Origin: Chitinophaga lutea
Lineage (GTDB): Bacteria; Bacteroidota; Bacteroidia; Chitinophagales; Chitinophagaceae
Assembly: GCF_003813775.1 (NCBI RefSeq)
Contig: NZ_RPDH01000001.1
Coordinates: 992,001-1,056,000 of the forward strand
DNA: 64,000 nt
Direction: 5' to 3'
Numbering within the stretch: position 1 is the stretch's first letter; each line of letters opens with the position of its first letter. Position numbers and translations under genes: made by a program. The notes beneath the pieces were generated by a model, which worked only from the letters and a program-made list of their open reading frames with translations, was not told the DNA's origin and did no database searches. Positions 28,640 to 49,042 of this stretch are shown one piece after another.

Positions 28640-29716
28640 AATGCACAGTTTTTCAGGTTTGGGTACAGGGCAAAAAGGATATGCAGGAACATTCACAGAA
28701 AAATGCCCGGTATGAGGGGAAACAGGACGGAGCGTGGTAGCGGGAAAACAGAACAGTCCATTCACAGATAAATGCGCGGCAAAGGGGAACAGCGACGGAA
28801 CGTGGCGACGGGAAAACAGAACGAGTTTAAATACATGGTAAAAGGAAACAGGACGAAGCACGGCAACGGAAAATAGAACGAGTTAAATACGTGGTACAAG
28901 GGAACAGGACGGAAAGTGGCAACGGGAAAACAGAACGAGCTTAAATGCGTAGCACAAGGAAACAGGACGAAACGTGGCAACGGGAAAACAGAACAGCCTT
29001 AAATGGCGTGGTACAAGGGAACAGGACGGAAAGTGGCAACGGGAAAACAGAACAGGCTTAAATGCGTGGTACACGGAAACAGGACGAAACGTGGCAACGG
29101 GAAAACAGAACGAGCTTAAATGCGTAGCACAAGGAAACAGGACGAAACGTGGCAACGGGAAAACAGAACAGTTCCTTTCACAGGGGGCCGCCGGTAAGCG
29201 GGCACAACTCCCGGTAACAGGCAAAGGAAGGGACAACGGGACAGGAAAACATTCACAGAAATACCCGGCTCGGAAAAAAGGGACTTACACCGGGGTACAG
29301 AGAAAAAAGGACAGGCCCGGAAACTCTTGTGGGTTACAACATTTATTACAACGGGAAGGCCCGGAATGTTCAGTCGCACGGGGATATATTCCACCGGGTA
29401 CGTATGTCATTTGATTGCAATAAAAGTTAAAACTATGTTAAAACCCGAAAAAAGTCCCAATCTTGGTATCCGAGGTACCTAACTATTACGAGGCGTTTTT
29501 ATAGTAACCAGGGAAATACTGAAAAAGGAAAGGAAGGAACATCAAAATTAGGAACATCTGCTTTTTAGCCGCTTGCTTTCATTCGATTTAATGATTTCGT
29601 AACGACCATGCCCCCGCTTGTATAATCGATTGAACCACCAAGATCTAAATCATCAAATACCTAGTCATTACAGAGTGAGCTATGCCCATGTCTAAGTCTT
29701 AAAATCCCATCAATAT
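28640..29716. other. Spacer between divergent SusC operons, with tandem array
   Basis: This 1.08-kb stretch has no supported gene. From 28718 to about 29172 it is a 58-bp tandem array. Degenerate relatives of the unit continue on both sides, and the segment ATTCACAGAAA recurs near 28691 and 29252. The right part (29400-29716) is AT-rich and presumably carries the promoter of the rightward SusC, but no good TTTG-TAnnTTTG pair was seen. Confidence 0.75.
28718..29172. repeat. 58-bp tandem repeat array, about 8 copies
   Basis: Each unit starts GGAAACAGGACGAAACGTGG, continues CAACGGGAAAACAGAACGAG and ends CTTAAATGCGTAGCACAA. Units starting GGGAACAGGACGGAAAGTGG alternate with the first type in the middle, giving a 116-bp higher order. 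The period is not a multiple of three, so it does not encode a repeated peptide. The plus strand is purine-rich. The last copy is partial. Confidence 0.92.
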
Positions 29717-42468: not shown

Positions 42469-42629
42469 ACTGATATTAATTTAACCGCTACAAGTTACCC
42501 TGCCGGAACAGCATATACTCATACGATATTGCCGGTGACTATGCATATTTGAATCAGCCCCGCCCGCTGGCAGGCGGTTTGCCGCTGCGGAAATATGACA
42601 GTGCGAACACCATGTGAACGAACACTTAA

Positions 42630-42675
42630 TTAACAACCGATTAACATAACGACAATAATTTTCAGTGTAACATTG
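42630..42675 (+). promoter_or_regulatory. Pho-box-like promoter A
   Basis: TTAACA (42630) and TTAACA (42641) are direct repeats with an 11-bp period (TTAACA-N5-TTAACA). The -7 element TAACATTG lies at 42668-42675, matching TAnnTTTG with one mismatch. The second box sits where the -33 element would be, as in activator-dependent promoters. The 11-bp direct repeat is the form bound by PhoB/PhoP response regulators. Confidence 0.6.
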
Positions 42676-42681
42676 TTCCAG

Positions 42682-42772
42682 CAAGATTTACTTCTTTATA
42701 TCGCTACACGATAGCGCTCCAATTTGATTTTCGACCGCCGGCCGCCGCTTTCACCAGCTGCGGCCTTTTTAT
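42682..42772 (+). ncRNA. Candidate small RNA A
   Basis: A transcript of about 90 nt is predicted from promoter A to an intrinsic terminator (GGCCGC at 42740-42745 with GCGGCC at 42760-42765, then TTTTT). It contains a small perfect hairpin (CGCTA-CACGA-TAGCG at 42702-42716) and no start codon with a meaningful frame. No known RNA family was recognised. Confidence 0.5.
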
Positions 42773-42829
42773 TACGGTGCCGGTGCAACGTTTTCGCTGT
42801 TAACAAAAGGGGGCAAATATGACATTTCT

Positions 42830-42875
42830 TTAACACGGCGTTAACATCATTCACAAACAGATCAGTGTAATATTG
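42830..42875 (+). promoter_or_regulatory. Pho-box-like promoter B
   Basis: The layout is identical to promoter A and exactly 200 bp downstream. TTAACA boxes start at 42830 and 42841, and TAATATTG lies at 42868-42875. The 6 bases before the -7 element (TCAGTG) are the same as in A. A further TTAACA lies at 42800. Confidence 0.6.
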
Positions 42876-42881
42876 AATATA

Positions 42882-42979
42882 CGTTAGAACACATATTCTT
42901 TAATACCTAAATAGCATCAAGCTCCATGTTAACCATTGATTAAAGGCAACCAATCCGTTATGATTGGTTGCCTTTTTTT
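42882..42979 (+). ncRNA. Candidate small RNA B
   Basis: About 98 nt run from promoter B to a very strong terminator (14-bp stem, 42942-42955 with 42962-42975, then T7). The only ATG gives a 5-codon frame (MLTID) just before the terminator. The 5' half is AU-rich and unstructured, as in many base-pairing small RNAs. Its targets are unknown. Confidence 0.55.
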
Positions 42980-43210
42980 AGAAGAATCATAACATTAACT
43001 GTAATAATGCCGCAGTAGGGTATATTAACTTAGCGATACATACAAAGCGTCGTATCATGATATCAACAGTTACCCTTGAAGTATTGCAGGAGTGGACAAA
43101 TGAAATATGAGCCCGTTGGATGTTACAGTAATTGAGAAGTTACCATTGGCCTATCAAATTTTTGAACTGAAACCCGATTTACAATTTAGCTTAAACCCCC
43201 AGTTGATCCA

Positions 43211-43501
43211 ATGCCAAAGCGTTATTTTGAAAGACTACAGACTATCGACTATCTTATCCGCATTAAAGGAACCGGCAAACCTTCGCAGTTGGCCAAACGG
43301 ATGCGCATTTCCGAACGCACGCTTTATGAGTTCCTGAAACTCATGAAAGATCTCGGTGCGCCGATAGAATACGATAGATACAAGGAGAGCTATTACTACG
43401 GTGAAAAAGGAGGATTCAACATCAAGTTCACCAAGAGCCTGATGACCGCCACACCCGTGATGTTGCTCACCCTTGTCATCATCACGCTAACAAGTTTGTA
43501 A
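43211..43501 (+). CDS. Small HTH protein with hydrophobic C-terminus
   Basis: The 96-residue protein starts MPKRYFERLQTIDYLIRI and has a winged-helix or HTH_11-like core: GKPSQLAKRMRISERTLYEF followed by LKLMKDLGAPIEYDRYKESY and YYGEKG. The final 22 residues (SLMTATPVMLLTLVIITL) are strongly hydrophobic, suggesting membrane association. From memory, similar short HTH proteins recur in Chitinophagaceae, but I know no assigned function. It sits between candidate RNAs A/B and C. The start is the first ATG of the frame; no ribosome-binding site helps decide. Confidence 0.65.
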   Translation: MPKRYFERLQTIDYLIRIKGTGKPSQLAKRMRISERTLYEFLKLMKDLGAPIEYDRYKESYYYGEKGGFNIKFTKSLMTATPVMLLTLVIITLTSL

Positions 43502-43532
43502 GCGTGCTTTCATGCACTCACAGGGTGGCCGG

Positions 43533-43577
43533 TTAACAAACAATTAACTCCGCCACTACAGGCACTGCACTATTTTG
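43533..43577 (+). promoter_or_regulatory. Pho-box-like promoter C
   Basis: TTAACA (43533) and TTAACT (43544) have the same 11-bp period as promoters A and B. TA of a -7 element (TATTTTG, 43571-43577) falls at exactly the same distance from the second box. The -7 match is shorter by one base. Confidence 0.5.
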
Positions 43578-43583
43578 ATGCCC

Positions 43584-43620
43584 GTTGCAATACAGGCACC
43601 AAAATGGTAGTGCCTTTTTT
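43584..43620 (+). ncRNA. Candidate short RNA C, or terminator of the HTH gene
   Basis: A terminator (AGGCAC at 43594-43599 with GTGCCT at 43610-43615, then T6) lies only about 35 bases after promoter C. The transcript would be very short. The hairpin may mainly terminate the HTH gene 90 bases upstream. The sequence ACAGGCAC occurs twice (43557, 43592), so the 3' arm has two possible partners. Confidence 0.35.
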
Positions 43621-43690
43621 CATGACCGTCCTGCACAAAGAACTTTTCTCATAACAAAGGTTTAGATTTAAATTGATGCAAAAGGATAAT

Positions 43691-43716
43691 GGCGGGTTTC
43701 TTTCCAGTCACCCGCC
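43691..43716 (-). terminator. Possible terminator of the small lipoprotein gene
   Basis: GGCGGGT (43691-43697) pairs with ACCCGCC (43710-43716). On the minus strand the hairpin is followed by a weak T-rich tract. It lies about 18 bases past the leftward stop. Confidence 0.45.
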
Positions 43717-43733
43717 GCGCTTTTCAGAGTGTT

Positions 43734-46847: not shown

Positions 46848-47981
46848 ATGTTTCATTTCGGCCAGCGTACCACCCTGATCATTTCCATCCTCATCATGCT
46901 GTTGACGGCATGTTTGCTGGTATGGCGGCCGGACTATAACTTTTTTGACGGCGGGCTCATCACCGCCATCCTGCTGACTATTTTTATCAAGAAAGACGCC
47001 GCCACCCGGTTTATGGGCATCGCCTGTACGCTGCTGGTGGTGATCATCGCCTGCCTGCCGCATAAAAATCCCAATCTCGCGGAAGTGTTCATCGAGCACT
47101 TCTTTTCGCTGATACTGGTGATCAGCTCCACCCTGCTGGTGCTGTTCCTCAAACGGCTGTACCGCACCATGCAGGAGCTGAACCAGGCGCTGGAGCGGGA
47201 AGTGGAGAAACGTACCGCCAATCTCGAACTGGCGCTCTCGCATCTCGCCTCTTCGCAGGCCGAACTGAAAGATGCGCTGGAAAAGGAAAAGGAACTGAAC
47301 GAGATCAAATCGCGGTTCGTGTCGATGGCTTCGCATGAGTTCAGAACGCCGCTGAGCGCCATTCTTTCTTCCGCCGCCCTGATCGGTAAATATCCCGCGC
47401 TGGAAGACCAGCCCCGCCGCGAAAAGCACGTATTCAAGATCCGCGAGGCGGTGATCCACCTTAACGAGCTGCTGGAGGATTTCCTTTCCCTCGGCCGCAT
47501 CGAAGAAGGGAAGATCCATGTGCACCCGGAAAAAATATCGCTGCACAGTTTCGCCATCGAAACGGTGGAAGAAGTGCAGGGCCTGCTCAAAAGCGGGCAG
47601 GTGCTGCATCCGGAAGTGGACAAAACGCTGGAAGTGATTTCCGACAAACGTTTACTGAAACATATTTTTGTGAACCTGCTCACCAATGCCTCCAAATTTT
47701 CTCCCGCAGATACGGCCATCGAATGGAAACTGTGGCAGGAAAACGGGCAGATCAACGCCATCGTTACGGACCACGGCATGGGTATTCCCGAAGAAGACAA
47801 AGCCTATCTTTTCAGCAGCTTTTTCCGCGCCCGCAATGTGACCAACATCCAGGGCACGGGGCTGGGCCTGCATATCGTGAAACGGTATGTAGACATGCTG
47901 CACGGTGAGATCAGCGTGGAAAGCAGCCTCGGCAGAGGAACGAGCATATTCATTCATTTTCCAAATTTACAAGCATCATGA
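46848..47981 (+). CDS. Membrane sensor histidine kinase
   Basis: The 377-residue protein has four hydrophobic helices within residues 9-102 and almost no periplasmic domain, then a coiled coil (about 105-155). The HisKA domain has phospho-acceptor His163 in FVSMASHEFRTPLSAI. The HATPase domain has the N box NLLTNASKFSP, G1 VTDHGMGIPEED and G2 GTGLGLHIVKRYV. With no evident sensor domain, it may sense the membrane or a partner protein. Its stop overlaps the start of the REC-CRP regulator (ATGA at 47978-47981), so the two form a two-component system. Confidence 0.94.
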   Translation: MFHFGQRTTLIISILIMLLTACLLVWRPDYNFFDGGLITAILLTIFIKKDAATRFMGIACTLLVVIIACLPHKNPNLAEVFIEHFFSLILVISSTLLVLFLKRLYRTMQELNQALEREVEKRTANLELALSHLASSQAELKDALEKEKELNEIKSRFVSMASHEFRTPLSAILSSAALIGKYPALEDQPRREKHVFKIREAVIHLNELLEDFLSLGRIEEGKIHVHPEKISLHSFAIETVEEVQGLLKSGQVLHPEVDKTLEVISDKRLLKHIFVNLLTNASKFSPADTAIEWKLWQENGQINAIVTDHGMGIPEEDKAYLFSSFFRARNVTNIQGTGLGLHIVKRYVDMLHGEISVESSLGRGTSIFIHFPNLQAS

Positions 47982-49042
47982 CAGCTTCCATTCTGGTGAT
48001 AGACGACCATCCCGGCATCCGCGAGAACGTGGCGGAAATCCTCACCCTCGCAGGGTACAACGCCCTGGAGGCGGAAAACGGGAAACAGGCCGTGGAAATG
48101 GCCAAGGAACACCGCCCGGACCTCATCATCTGTGATATCATGATGCCGGAGCTCGACGGCTACGGCGTGCTGCATATGCTGCGTAAATACCCTGAAACGG
48201 AGCACATCCCCTTCATCTTCCTTACCGCCAAAACCGACCGCAGCGATTTCCGCAGAGGCATGGAAATGGGCGCGGACGATTATATCACCAAACCTTTCGA
48301 AGACGTGGAACTGCTCACCGCGGTGGAAACGCGGCTGAAAAAACAGCAGTTCCTCCAGGAAAAATTCGCGGCGGCGCAAACACAGTCCATCGGCGTAATG
48401 TTGCAGGACTGGCAGGCTTCCGGCCTCCTCCACCTCGACCTCGACGCATACGACGTGGTGCAGTTCAGCAAAAAACAACCCGTGTACCGCGAAGGCAAGC
48501 ACCCGCAGTTCCTGTACTACGTGAAAAGCGGCAAGGTCAAAGCCTTCCGCCTCAACGACGACGGGAAGGAATACATCACCAACCTCTTCGGGCAGGGCGA
48601 TTATTTCGGATATGTGCCGCTGCTGGAAGACCATCCCTACGAAGAAAACGCGGAAGCCCTGGAACACACCGAACTGGTGCAGATCCCCAAGGAAATATTC
48701 CTCGAACAGCTGCTGAACAACATCGGCGTGGCGCGCACCTTCATCAAACGCATCGCATCCGAGGTGAAGGAAAAAGAAGACCGCCTGCTGCAACTCGCTT
48801 ACGATTCCCTGCGCAAACGCGTGGCCAACGGCCTGCTGGCCATTCACGACAAACTCCACCTGGAACAGCAGCCCGGCGCGCTCATCGAGCTTTCCCGCGA
48901 CGATATCGCCCGCTTTGTGGGCACGGCCACGGAATCGCTCATCCGCACGCTCAGCGACTTCAAATCGGAGAAACTCATCGAAATGCAGGGTACCCGCATC
49001 CGCATCGTTCAACCGGATTTATTGCGGAAGCTGCTGTACTGA
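47978..49042 (+). CDS. Response regulator with REC and CRP/FNR-type domains
   Basis: The 354-residue protein joins a receiver domain (acidic pair Asp9/Asp10, phospho-acceptor Asp53 in LIICDIMMPELDGYG, Thr83, Lys105 in DYITKPF) to a cyclic-nucleotide-binding-type domain at about 145-265 (YREGKHPQFLYYVKSGKVKA, GQGDYFGYVPLLED). A C-terminal winged HTH follows (LSRDDIARFVGTATESLIRT). Most response regulators of Bacteroidota have OmpR, LuxR, LytTR or Fis outputs, so this arrangement is less common. It could integrate phosphorylation with a ligand, though binding of cAMP is not shown. It is coupled to the kinase by a 4-base overlap. Confidence 0.93.
   Translation: MTASILVIDDHPGIRENVAEILTLAGYNALEAENGKQAVEMAKEHRPDLIICDIMMPELDGYGVLHMLRKYPETEHIPFIFLTAKTDRSDFRRGMEMGADDYITKPFEDVELLTAVETRLKKQQFLQEKFAAAQTQSIGVMLQDWQASGLLHLDLDAYDVVQFSKKQPVYREGKHPQFLYYVKSGKVKAFRLNDDGKEYITNLFGQGDYFGYVPLLEDHPYEENAEALEHTELVQIPKEIFLEQLLNNIGVARTFIKRIASEVKEKEDRLLQLAYDSLRKRVANGLLAIHDKLHLEQQPGALIELSRDDIARFVGTATESLIRTLSDFKSEKLIEMQGTRIRIVQPDLLRKLLY

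Follow-up and report, generated by a model that had tools for sequence, protein, structure and literature searches.

The locus and the winged-helix gene

In the 64,000-nt stretch analysed here, from the genome of the soil bacterium Chitinophaga lutea (the window), two predicted small-RNA genes, A and B, lie in tandem ahead of a gene for a small winged-helix protein, and this gene is followed on the same strand by a third box, C, a terminator-like hairpin and a further element, D (Table 1).

Table 1. Features of the locus in window coordinates; RNAs A and B are predicted from sequence only, and their start points are inferred
Feature	Position	Strand	Sequence or form	Remark
Box A	42630..42646	+	TTAACA-N5-TTAACA, direct repeat	In 17/17 clade genomes; first half-site TTAACT in L014
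-7-like element of promoter A	42668..42675	+	TAACATTG	21 nt past box
Predicted small RNA A	42680..42770	+		About 90 nt
Conserved core of RNA A	42716..42733	+	GCUCCAAUUUGAUUUUCG	Complementary to RNA E1 (second locus)
Intrinsic terminator A	42740..42770	+	GGCCGC..GCGGCC-TTTTT	
Box B	42819..42846	+	ATGACA-N5-TTAACA-N5-TTAACA	Three half-sites, one every 11 bp
-7-like element of promoter B	42868..42875	+	TAATATTG	21 nt past box
Predicted small RNA B	42880..42979	+		About 100 nt
Conserved core of RNA B	42921..42939	+	GCUCCAUGUUAACCAUUGA	
Intrinsic terminator B	42942..42979	+	AAAGGCAACCAATC..GATTGGTTGCC-TTTTTTT	
Separate promoter-like region of winged-helix gene	42998..43033	+	ACTG-N11-CAGT, then TAACTTAG	
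Leader of winged-helix gene	43178..43210	+	CAATTTAGCTTAAACCCCC..ATCC	Highly conserved
Small winged-helix protein	43211..43501	+		96 aa, hydrophobic C-terminal helix
Box C	43533..43549	+	TTAACA-N5-TTAACT	3' of winged-helix gene
Terminator-like hairpin	43561..43620	+	Includes TATTTTG, the '-7' of C	3' of winged-helix gene
Element D	43659..43725	+	GGTTTAGAT and hairpin GGCGGGT..ACCCGCC	Downstream of winged-helix gene

A DNA search with positions 42580-43660 recovers the winged-helix gene region in 79 of 79 genus genomes, and the frame is present in all 79 loci. The encoded protein scores 23.6 bits against Pfam HTH_11, just under the cut-off of 25, and its predicted fold (mean pLDDT 80) consists of three helices and two strands, which make up a winged helix, followed by a low-confidence C-terminal helix. 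Among 55 loci encoding relatives in named genomes, 52 carry the name Chitinophaga, and the other three are from a [Flexibacter] strain and a Flavihumibacter MAG, both on contigs that match Chitinophaga genomes, and, as a weak match, a Bacteroidales MAG. In addition, a protein search returned 44 relatives, many of them without a source name and all of the named ones from Chitinophaga; a sequence search of solved structures gave no match. Upstream of the gene, the conserved leader element carries CAATTTAGC, and the ACTG-N11-CAGT dyad of the promoter-like region is weak in C. lutea and not found in every clade.

A link of the locus to glycan use, which an earlier note on this DNA had proposed, found no support, because the winged-helix gene and its box units also occur beside non-glycan neighbours in many loci. 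When one member of each neighbour family was scanned in 54 named loci, homologues of the fucosidase and of GH95 were each found within 3 kb of the gene in 10 loci, those of GH95 within the A/B clade, so that the glycan context is a local one; VirJ-like and lysyltransferase-like (LPG_synthase_C) neighbours each occur in 39 of the 54 (e.g. L117:4508-6271 and orthologues). Elsewhere in the window, positions 46848-49042 encode a histidine kinase beside a response regulator fused to cyclic-nucleotide-binding and CRP-type DNA-binding domains.

Two conserved small-RNA candidates

The direct repeat TTAACA-N5-TTAAC(A/T) is present, as had been claimed, at 42630, 42830 and 43533 of the plus strand, and the claimed equality of the distance to the following TA also holds, with a -7-like element at 21 nt in all three. 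The pattern is rare: dinucleotide shuffles of the window (n=100) contain a mean of 0.00 matches, and the 6.6-Mb genome has nine, as against one for the reversed pattern. Allowing up to one mismatch to TTAACA-N5-TTAACA, the whole genome holds 58 sites (21 for the reversed control), and examination of all 58 revealed a -7-like element exactly 21 nt past the box at only four, which are A, B, C and C1:2603300. A fifth site has a weak -7 at 20 nt, but the ATG of a 352-aa frame precedes that -7. The window also contains a fourth perfect match, TTAACA-N5-TTAACT at 29425-29441 of the minus strand, which no -7 follows at the expected distance.

Both A and B are found in 17 of the 79 genus loci, which form one clade, and B is the stricter unit. 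In box B the half-site ATGACA is invariant in all 17 genomes and the middle half-site is ATAACA in seven. The spacing from box to -7 element is 21 nt in 16 of 17 genomes for promoter A (in L014 the -7 pattern is not matched) and, for promoter B, 21 nt in 15 and 20 nt in two; the -7 element of B reads GTAAyATTG across the clade, with GTATACTTG in one genome. Predicted lengths range from 90 to 124 nt for A and from 58 to 113 nt for B. The A/B units share an unpaired core, CUCCAA-x-UUaAC, ahead of the terminator; in B it belongs to an unpaired stretch with GCTCCAAGTTAACCAT or a variant at its end, and the core of A, gCTCCAATTTgaxTT, is related to that of B and more variable, behind a promoter of the same type. 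Furthermore, the stem of terminator B varies between species while its pairing is kept, and 5 of 10 consensus pairs are changed on both sides and still pair.

No protein frame accounts for A or B, in line with the earlier note, as the longest frames differ by lineage and none is common to the clade. At the start of RNA B, six genomes (L016, L018-L022) have a tiny frame, MI(H/Y/Q)AP(S/G), and L014 has a longer frame instead.

A model of B, run against 148 relatives from 54 sampled genera, matches in 19 genomes, all of them Chitinophaga, and in the C. lutea genome it finds B and A only. Across the 79 loci it detects B in the 17 and A in most of these, together with related units in L066, L027, L056 and L057. 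For A, the model comprises 16 of the 17 sequences, as the terminator pattern missed L014.

Taken together, A and B have, at the level of sequence, what is expected of intergenic small RNAs, namely a promoter of their own, an intrinsic terminator and no conserved frame, and their interpretation as two conserved predicted small-RNA genes of Chitinophaga is well supported. The core of the earlier proposal, duplicated small RNAs driven by a box, has gained from the comparison with other Chitinophaga genomes, and some of its details do not hold across the clade. Its cassette lengths of about 90 and 98 nt agree with the predicted A (about 90 nt) and B (about 100 nt), its 200-bp distance between A and B recurs in C. 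alhagiae and gives way to 211-400 bp in the other 15 genomes, and the TCAGTG that A and B have in common ahead of the -7 is not conserved in relatives.

Single short motifs recur by chance, and the reversed-pattern controls are not empty, so functionless AT-rich repeats and terminators in intergenic DNA have to be considered. Such an origin is barely credible in view of the rarity of the box and its exact spacing in the genome, and of the conservation of A and B in 17 genomes; the earlier note had named chance frequency and a lack of conservation as what would count against its proposal, and neither was found.

A second alternative is attenuation: A and B would then be short leader transcripts belonging to the winged-helix gene, which start at a box and stop at a terminator unless a signal permits read-through. 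They lie adjacent to the gene on the same strand, with the end of terminator B 206-281 nt upstream of the start codon. We consider this improbable, because throughout the clade terminator B is followed by a separate promoter-like region ahead of the gene, A terminates before promoter B, and no alternative antiterminator is apparent in single-sequence folds.

Box units in other clades

Units like A and B also precede the same winged-helix gene in other clades. Upstream of this gene, 46 of the 79 loci contain 83 boxes of the form TTAAC-N6-TTAAC, of which 57 have a -7 at 20-24 nt, 72 a terminator-like hairpin and 52 both; among 474 random positions drawn from these regions the counts are 16, 175 and 7. 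The 83 boxes are not independent events, because the genomes are related. In the remaining 33 of 79 loci the gene is present but no strict box precedes it, which weakens the idea that the winged-helix protein is itself the binder of the TTAAC boxes.

The box is also common on the other side of the gene, where TTAAC-N6-TTAAC occurs 240-560 nt past the winged-helix start codon in 60 of 79 loci. Site C had been taken for a third small-RNA cassette of about 35 nt, and this part of the earlier description is not supported: its '-7', TATTTTG, sits in the stem of the hairpin that follows the winged-helix gene. In relatives the same TATTTTG is part of the left arm of a hairpin (e.g. AGCTATTTTGTTGCC..GGCAACAAAATAGCT), often with T next. 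This hairpin resembles a terminator for the winged-helix gene, and a conserved box precedes it. Further downstream, the hairpin pattern of element D, GCAGGTxxCT...AGTxACCTGC, is found in 72 of 79 loci, and a further 0.57 Mb of DNA from other places contains no match, barring loci that overlap such a site.

A second locus with complementary cores

The site C1:2603300 is a further cassette, E1, which consists of ATAACA-N5-TTAACA, TAATTTTG after 21 nt, a predicted RNA and a terminator. Its box is present in all 17 clade genomes, with a -7 of the TAnnTTTG type at 21 nt in 16 and at 20 nt in one. E1 carries GUUAAAUUGGAGCG, the reverse complement of the A/B core; 12 of 17 genomes have GTTAAATTGGAGCG exactly, and of the five with variants four keep TTGGAGCG (in C. 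lutea ATAAAATTGGAGCG) and G007 has CCAAATATGGAGCG. Downstream of E1 a second box, E2, is likewise present in 17 of 17, with a -7 recognised by pattern at 21 nt in 13. Past the E2 promoter, 12 of 17 genomes have TTGGAGAG (anti-core UUGGAGAG), and a hairpin with a T-run comes next in the genomes inspected; E2 lacks the anti-core in C. lutea, C. alhagiae, G007, G072 and G037. In another clade, G046, G071 and G022 also have two boxes at this locus with weaker likeness of the core, and no such box pair was seen there in G049 and G005.

Directly 5' of E1 (L307:1315-1393 on C1) lies another conserved RNA-like element of about 80 nt, which has a terminator and includes ACTAGTTGCTGTTACAGCATATAGTTAGGTTAAATGGTAAAGCCC. 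It is found in at least 60 of 79 genus genomes, and its best Rfam match is Spot 42, at 25.9 bits against a cut-off of 80.

In most clade genomes the complementarity between the two loci is stronger than in controls. In C. lutea, 13 of 14 nt pair between A and E1, which is equalled by 1 of 300 shuffles and by 1 of 300 random window segments. When the best pairing over 14 nt between either A or B and either E1 or E2 is taken, no more than 3 of 300 shuffles equal it in 12 of 17 genomes; pairing is weak in the other five, where 47 (G009), 32 (G006), 21 (G037), 40 (G011) and 226 (G007) of 300 shuffles are as good. By duplex energy, at most 10 of 200 shuffles are as good as A or B with E1 in 10 of 17 genomes only. 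In addition, E1 or E2 can form a helix of 10-15 nt with the conserved element of the winged-helix leader in 14 of 17 genomes, in none of which more than 9 of 200 shuffles are as good; this match is absent in C. lutea, C. alhagiae and G007. Pairing of RNA B with the same leader is no better than in shuffles.

From this complementarity, the most likely reading is that the A/B core and the E1/E2 anti-core anneal as RNAs. A competing view is that the core is a DNA-binding site, GCTCCAATTTAAC, present in both orientations and recognised, for example, by the winged-helix protein, in which case the complementarity would reflect inversion of the site. A small winged-helix protein is encoded beside A and B, a related element occurs in the leader of its own gene, clean compensatory covariation between core and anti-core was not found, and B and E1 have one fixed G-A mismatch in common, all of which would fit a protein-binding site. 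Nevertheless, an operator would be oddly placed just ahead of an intrinsic terminator, where the element stands in A, B, E1 and E2, and in the leader over 100 nt separate it from the promoter-like region upstream. A DNA site is thus the main rival and the less likely reading of the two.

A candidate small-RNA circuit

Annealing of the two RNA sets is the centre of what we regard as the best explanation of the findings as a whole, a co-regulated sRNA/anti-sRNA circuit of A/B and E1/E2, to which we give an even chance. A and B would be sibling trans-acting small RNAs transcribed from Bacteroidota -7 promoters that need a response regulator of the OmpR/PhoB type, and this regulator, for which a PhoB-type protein is the best guess, would bind as tandem monomers to TTAACA half-sites placed every 11 bp over -33. 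Each A/B RNA would expose its short unpaired core ahead of the terminator. E1 and, in most of the clade, its sibling E2 would be made under the same kind of box and, through their complementary cores, would anneal with A and B. Because E1 or E2 can anneal to the leader in most clade genomes, we propose that E1/E2 regulate the winged-helix mRNA through it, and that A and B, encoded beside the gene and with a leader-like core, would act as decoys.

Is the box a Pho box?

The half-site of the A/B boxes also marks phosphate genes in relatives. A half-site matrix, trained only on 34 A/B boxes, was scored over 160 bp upstream of genes. Scores of at least 11.1 were reached at 7 of 8 pst loci and 13 of 17 ppk genes beside ppx, as against 0 of 13 genes of the other ppk paralogue and 5 of 165 controls; at about 16 or more, the counts were 4 of 8, 8 of 17, 0 of 13 and 0 of 165. 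The 165 control genes come from the window and from loci fetched for reasons other than the box, after removal of eight PstS rows and of genes near the winged-helix locus. Three of the five controls at or above 11.1 are one orthologous gene, and L223, a further control with a score of 10.6, is in fact a pstS gene. The 30 ppk loci, taken from best-scoring matches, were grouped by length into the two paralogues (17 and 13), and a ppx motif stands beside ppk in 19 of 19 rows of one paralogue and in 0 of 13 of the other, L181 and L229 being the same locus. L181, the ppk of G010, was left out of the ppk counts because it was found through its box.

The boxes at these genes differ in form from those at A and B. 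The strict TTAAC-N6-TTAAC pattern has no match at pstS in the eight pst loci, and the pstS promoters of other Chitinophaga carry degenerate boxes such as TTCACATTGAGTTAACA in 7 of 8 pst loci, with a TA 21-22 nt past the box in 7 of 7 and a good -7 in one only, TATATTTG. The geometry of the ppk promoters is different, because a -7-like element follows the box at 30-31 nt in 12 of 13, as against 21 nt at A and B.

In C. lutea itself the signs are mixed. No PhoU match (TIGR02135) was found in the genome, no pst permeases were seen beside its PstS-like gene, and its ppk box is degenerate, with a score of 5.8. The closest PhoB-like regulator (C1:2711420-2712073) scores 219 bits against an equivalog cut-off of 296, is 50 bits ahead of the next regulator, and has a histidine kinase gene next to it. 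A search for PhoX gave matches in 4 of 79 genomes, where the gene has no strong box nearby. The claim that the boxes are of the Pho type is partly supported: the A/B half-site marks the pst and ppk-ppx promoters of relatives, which supports it indirectly, and the lack of a PhoU match and the weak ppk box of C. lutea speak against it.

The boxes might instead be bound by another OmpR-family regulator that does not respond to phosphate, and their likeness to the pst and ppk boxes would then reflect a binding mode common to the family. The missing PhoU match would agree with this, as would G017 and G010, from other clades, where a strict box with a -7 stands ahead of genes for ECF sigma factors, RteC-like and AraC-like proteins and only once ahead of ppk. 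However, the A/B-trained score separates ppk beside ppx from the second ppk just as PhoB dependence does in Bacteroides fragilis, where, according to the part of the source available to us, PstSCAB, ppk BF2645 and ppx BF2646 depend on PhoB and the other ppk, BF3714, is classed as PhoB-independent (PMC3547664). A regulator of this other kind has, in our estimate, a chance not far below even, and the PhoB reading of the A/B boxes seems evenly poised between right and wrong. The more specific proposal, that a phosphate-type regulator drives mirror-image sets of small RNAs (A/B versus E1/E2) which anneal with each other and, as rivals, with the leader of a winged-helix regulator specific to the genus, is possible and, on balance, somewhat doubtful.

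These findings hint at an RNA-against-RNA control circuit that is new to description. At gathering score no Rfam family was found in the window, and no match reaches that score among those ranked by E-value in the A/B/C region and at the E1 locus; likewise, among the openly available papers listed on Chitinophaga small RNAs, Pho-controlled small RNAs and Bacteroidota sponges there was no description of the A/B-E1/E2 system, in agreement with the view of the earlier note that the family was undescribed. To our knowledge, few small RNAs of the Bacteroidota have known targets or known transcriptional control. If the proposal is true, it would add built-in competition between sRNA and anti-sRNA under one signal to a phylum with few known sRNA mechanisms. 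The operator is defined in sequence, the small RNAs have complementary cores and a candidate mRNA leader is at hand, which makes the system testable with few mutants, and the candidate Pho box offers a way to find its regulon in Chitinophaga.

Comparison with known systems

In Bacillus subtilis the Pho box has the form TTAACA. PhoB/PhoP boxes are described, in the accessible part of the source, as two 11-nt direct repeat units (PMC4415409). The A/B boxes resemble them in having at least two direct half-sites at 11-bp steps over the -33/-35 position, and in the occurrence of the same half-site type at the pst and ppk-ppx promoters of relatives; they differ in that they precede predicted small RNAs, not uptake genes, in a genome with no PhoU match.

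Among Bacteroides small RNAs, GibS and MasB are likewise intergenic, with a promoter of the TAnnTTTG type and an intrinsic terminator, and several intergenic small RNAs of this genus have long unfolded stretches, as far as the available parts of the two reports go (PMC7366714, PMC10994844); GibS is called there the first trans-encoded example with targets (PMC7366714). This likeness is one of architecture, and A and B differ from both in that they are siblings in tandem, have activator boxes and match a complementary partner elsewhere in the genome.

Sponges, or anti-sRNAs, are RNAs that pair with the seed of another small RNA, as one RNA is predicted to pair here with the core of another. What would set the Chitinophaga system apart is that both partners, A/B and E1/E2, lie under the same kind of box.
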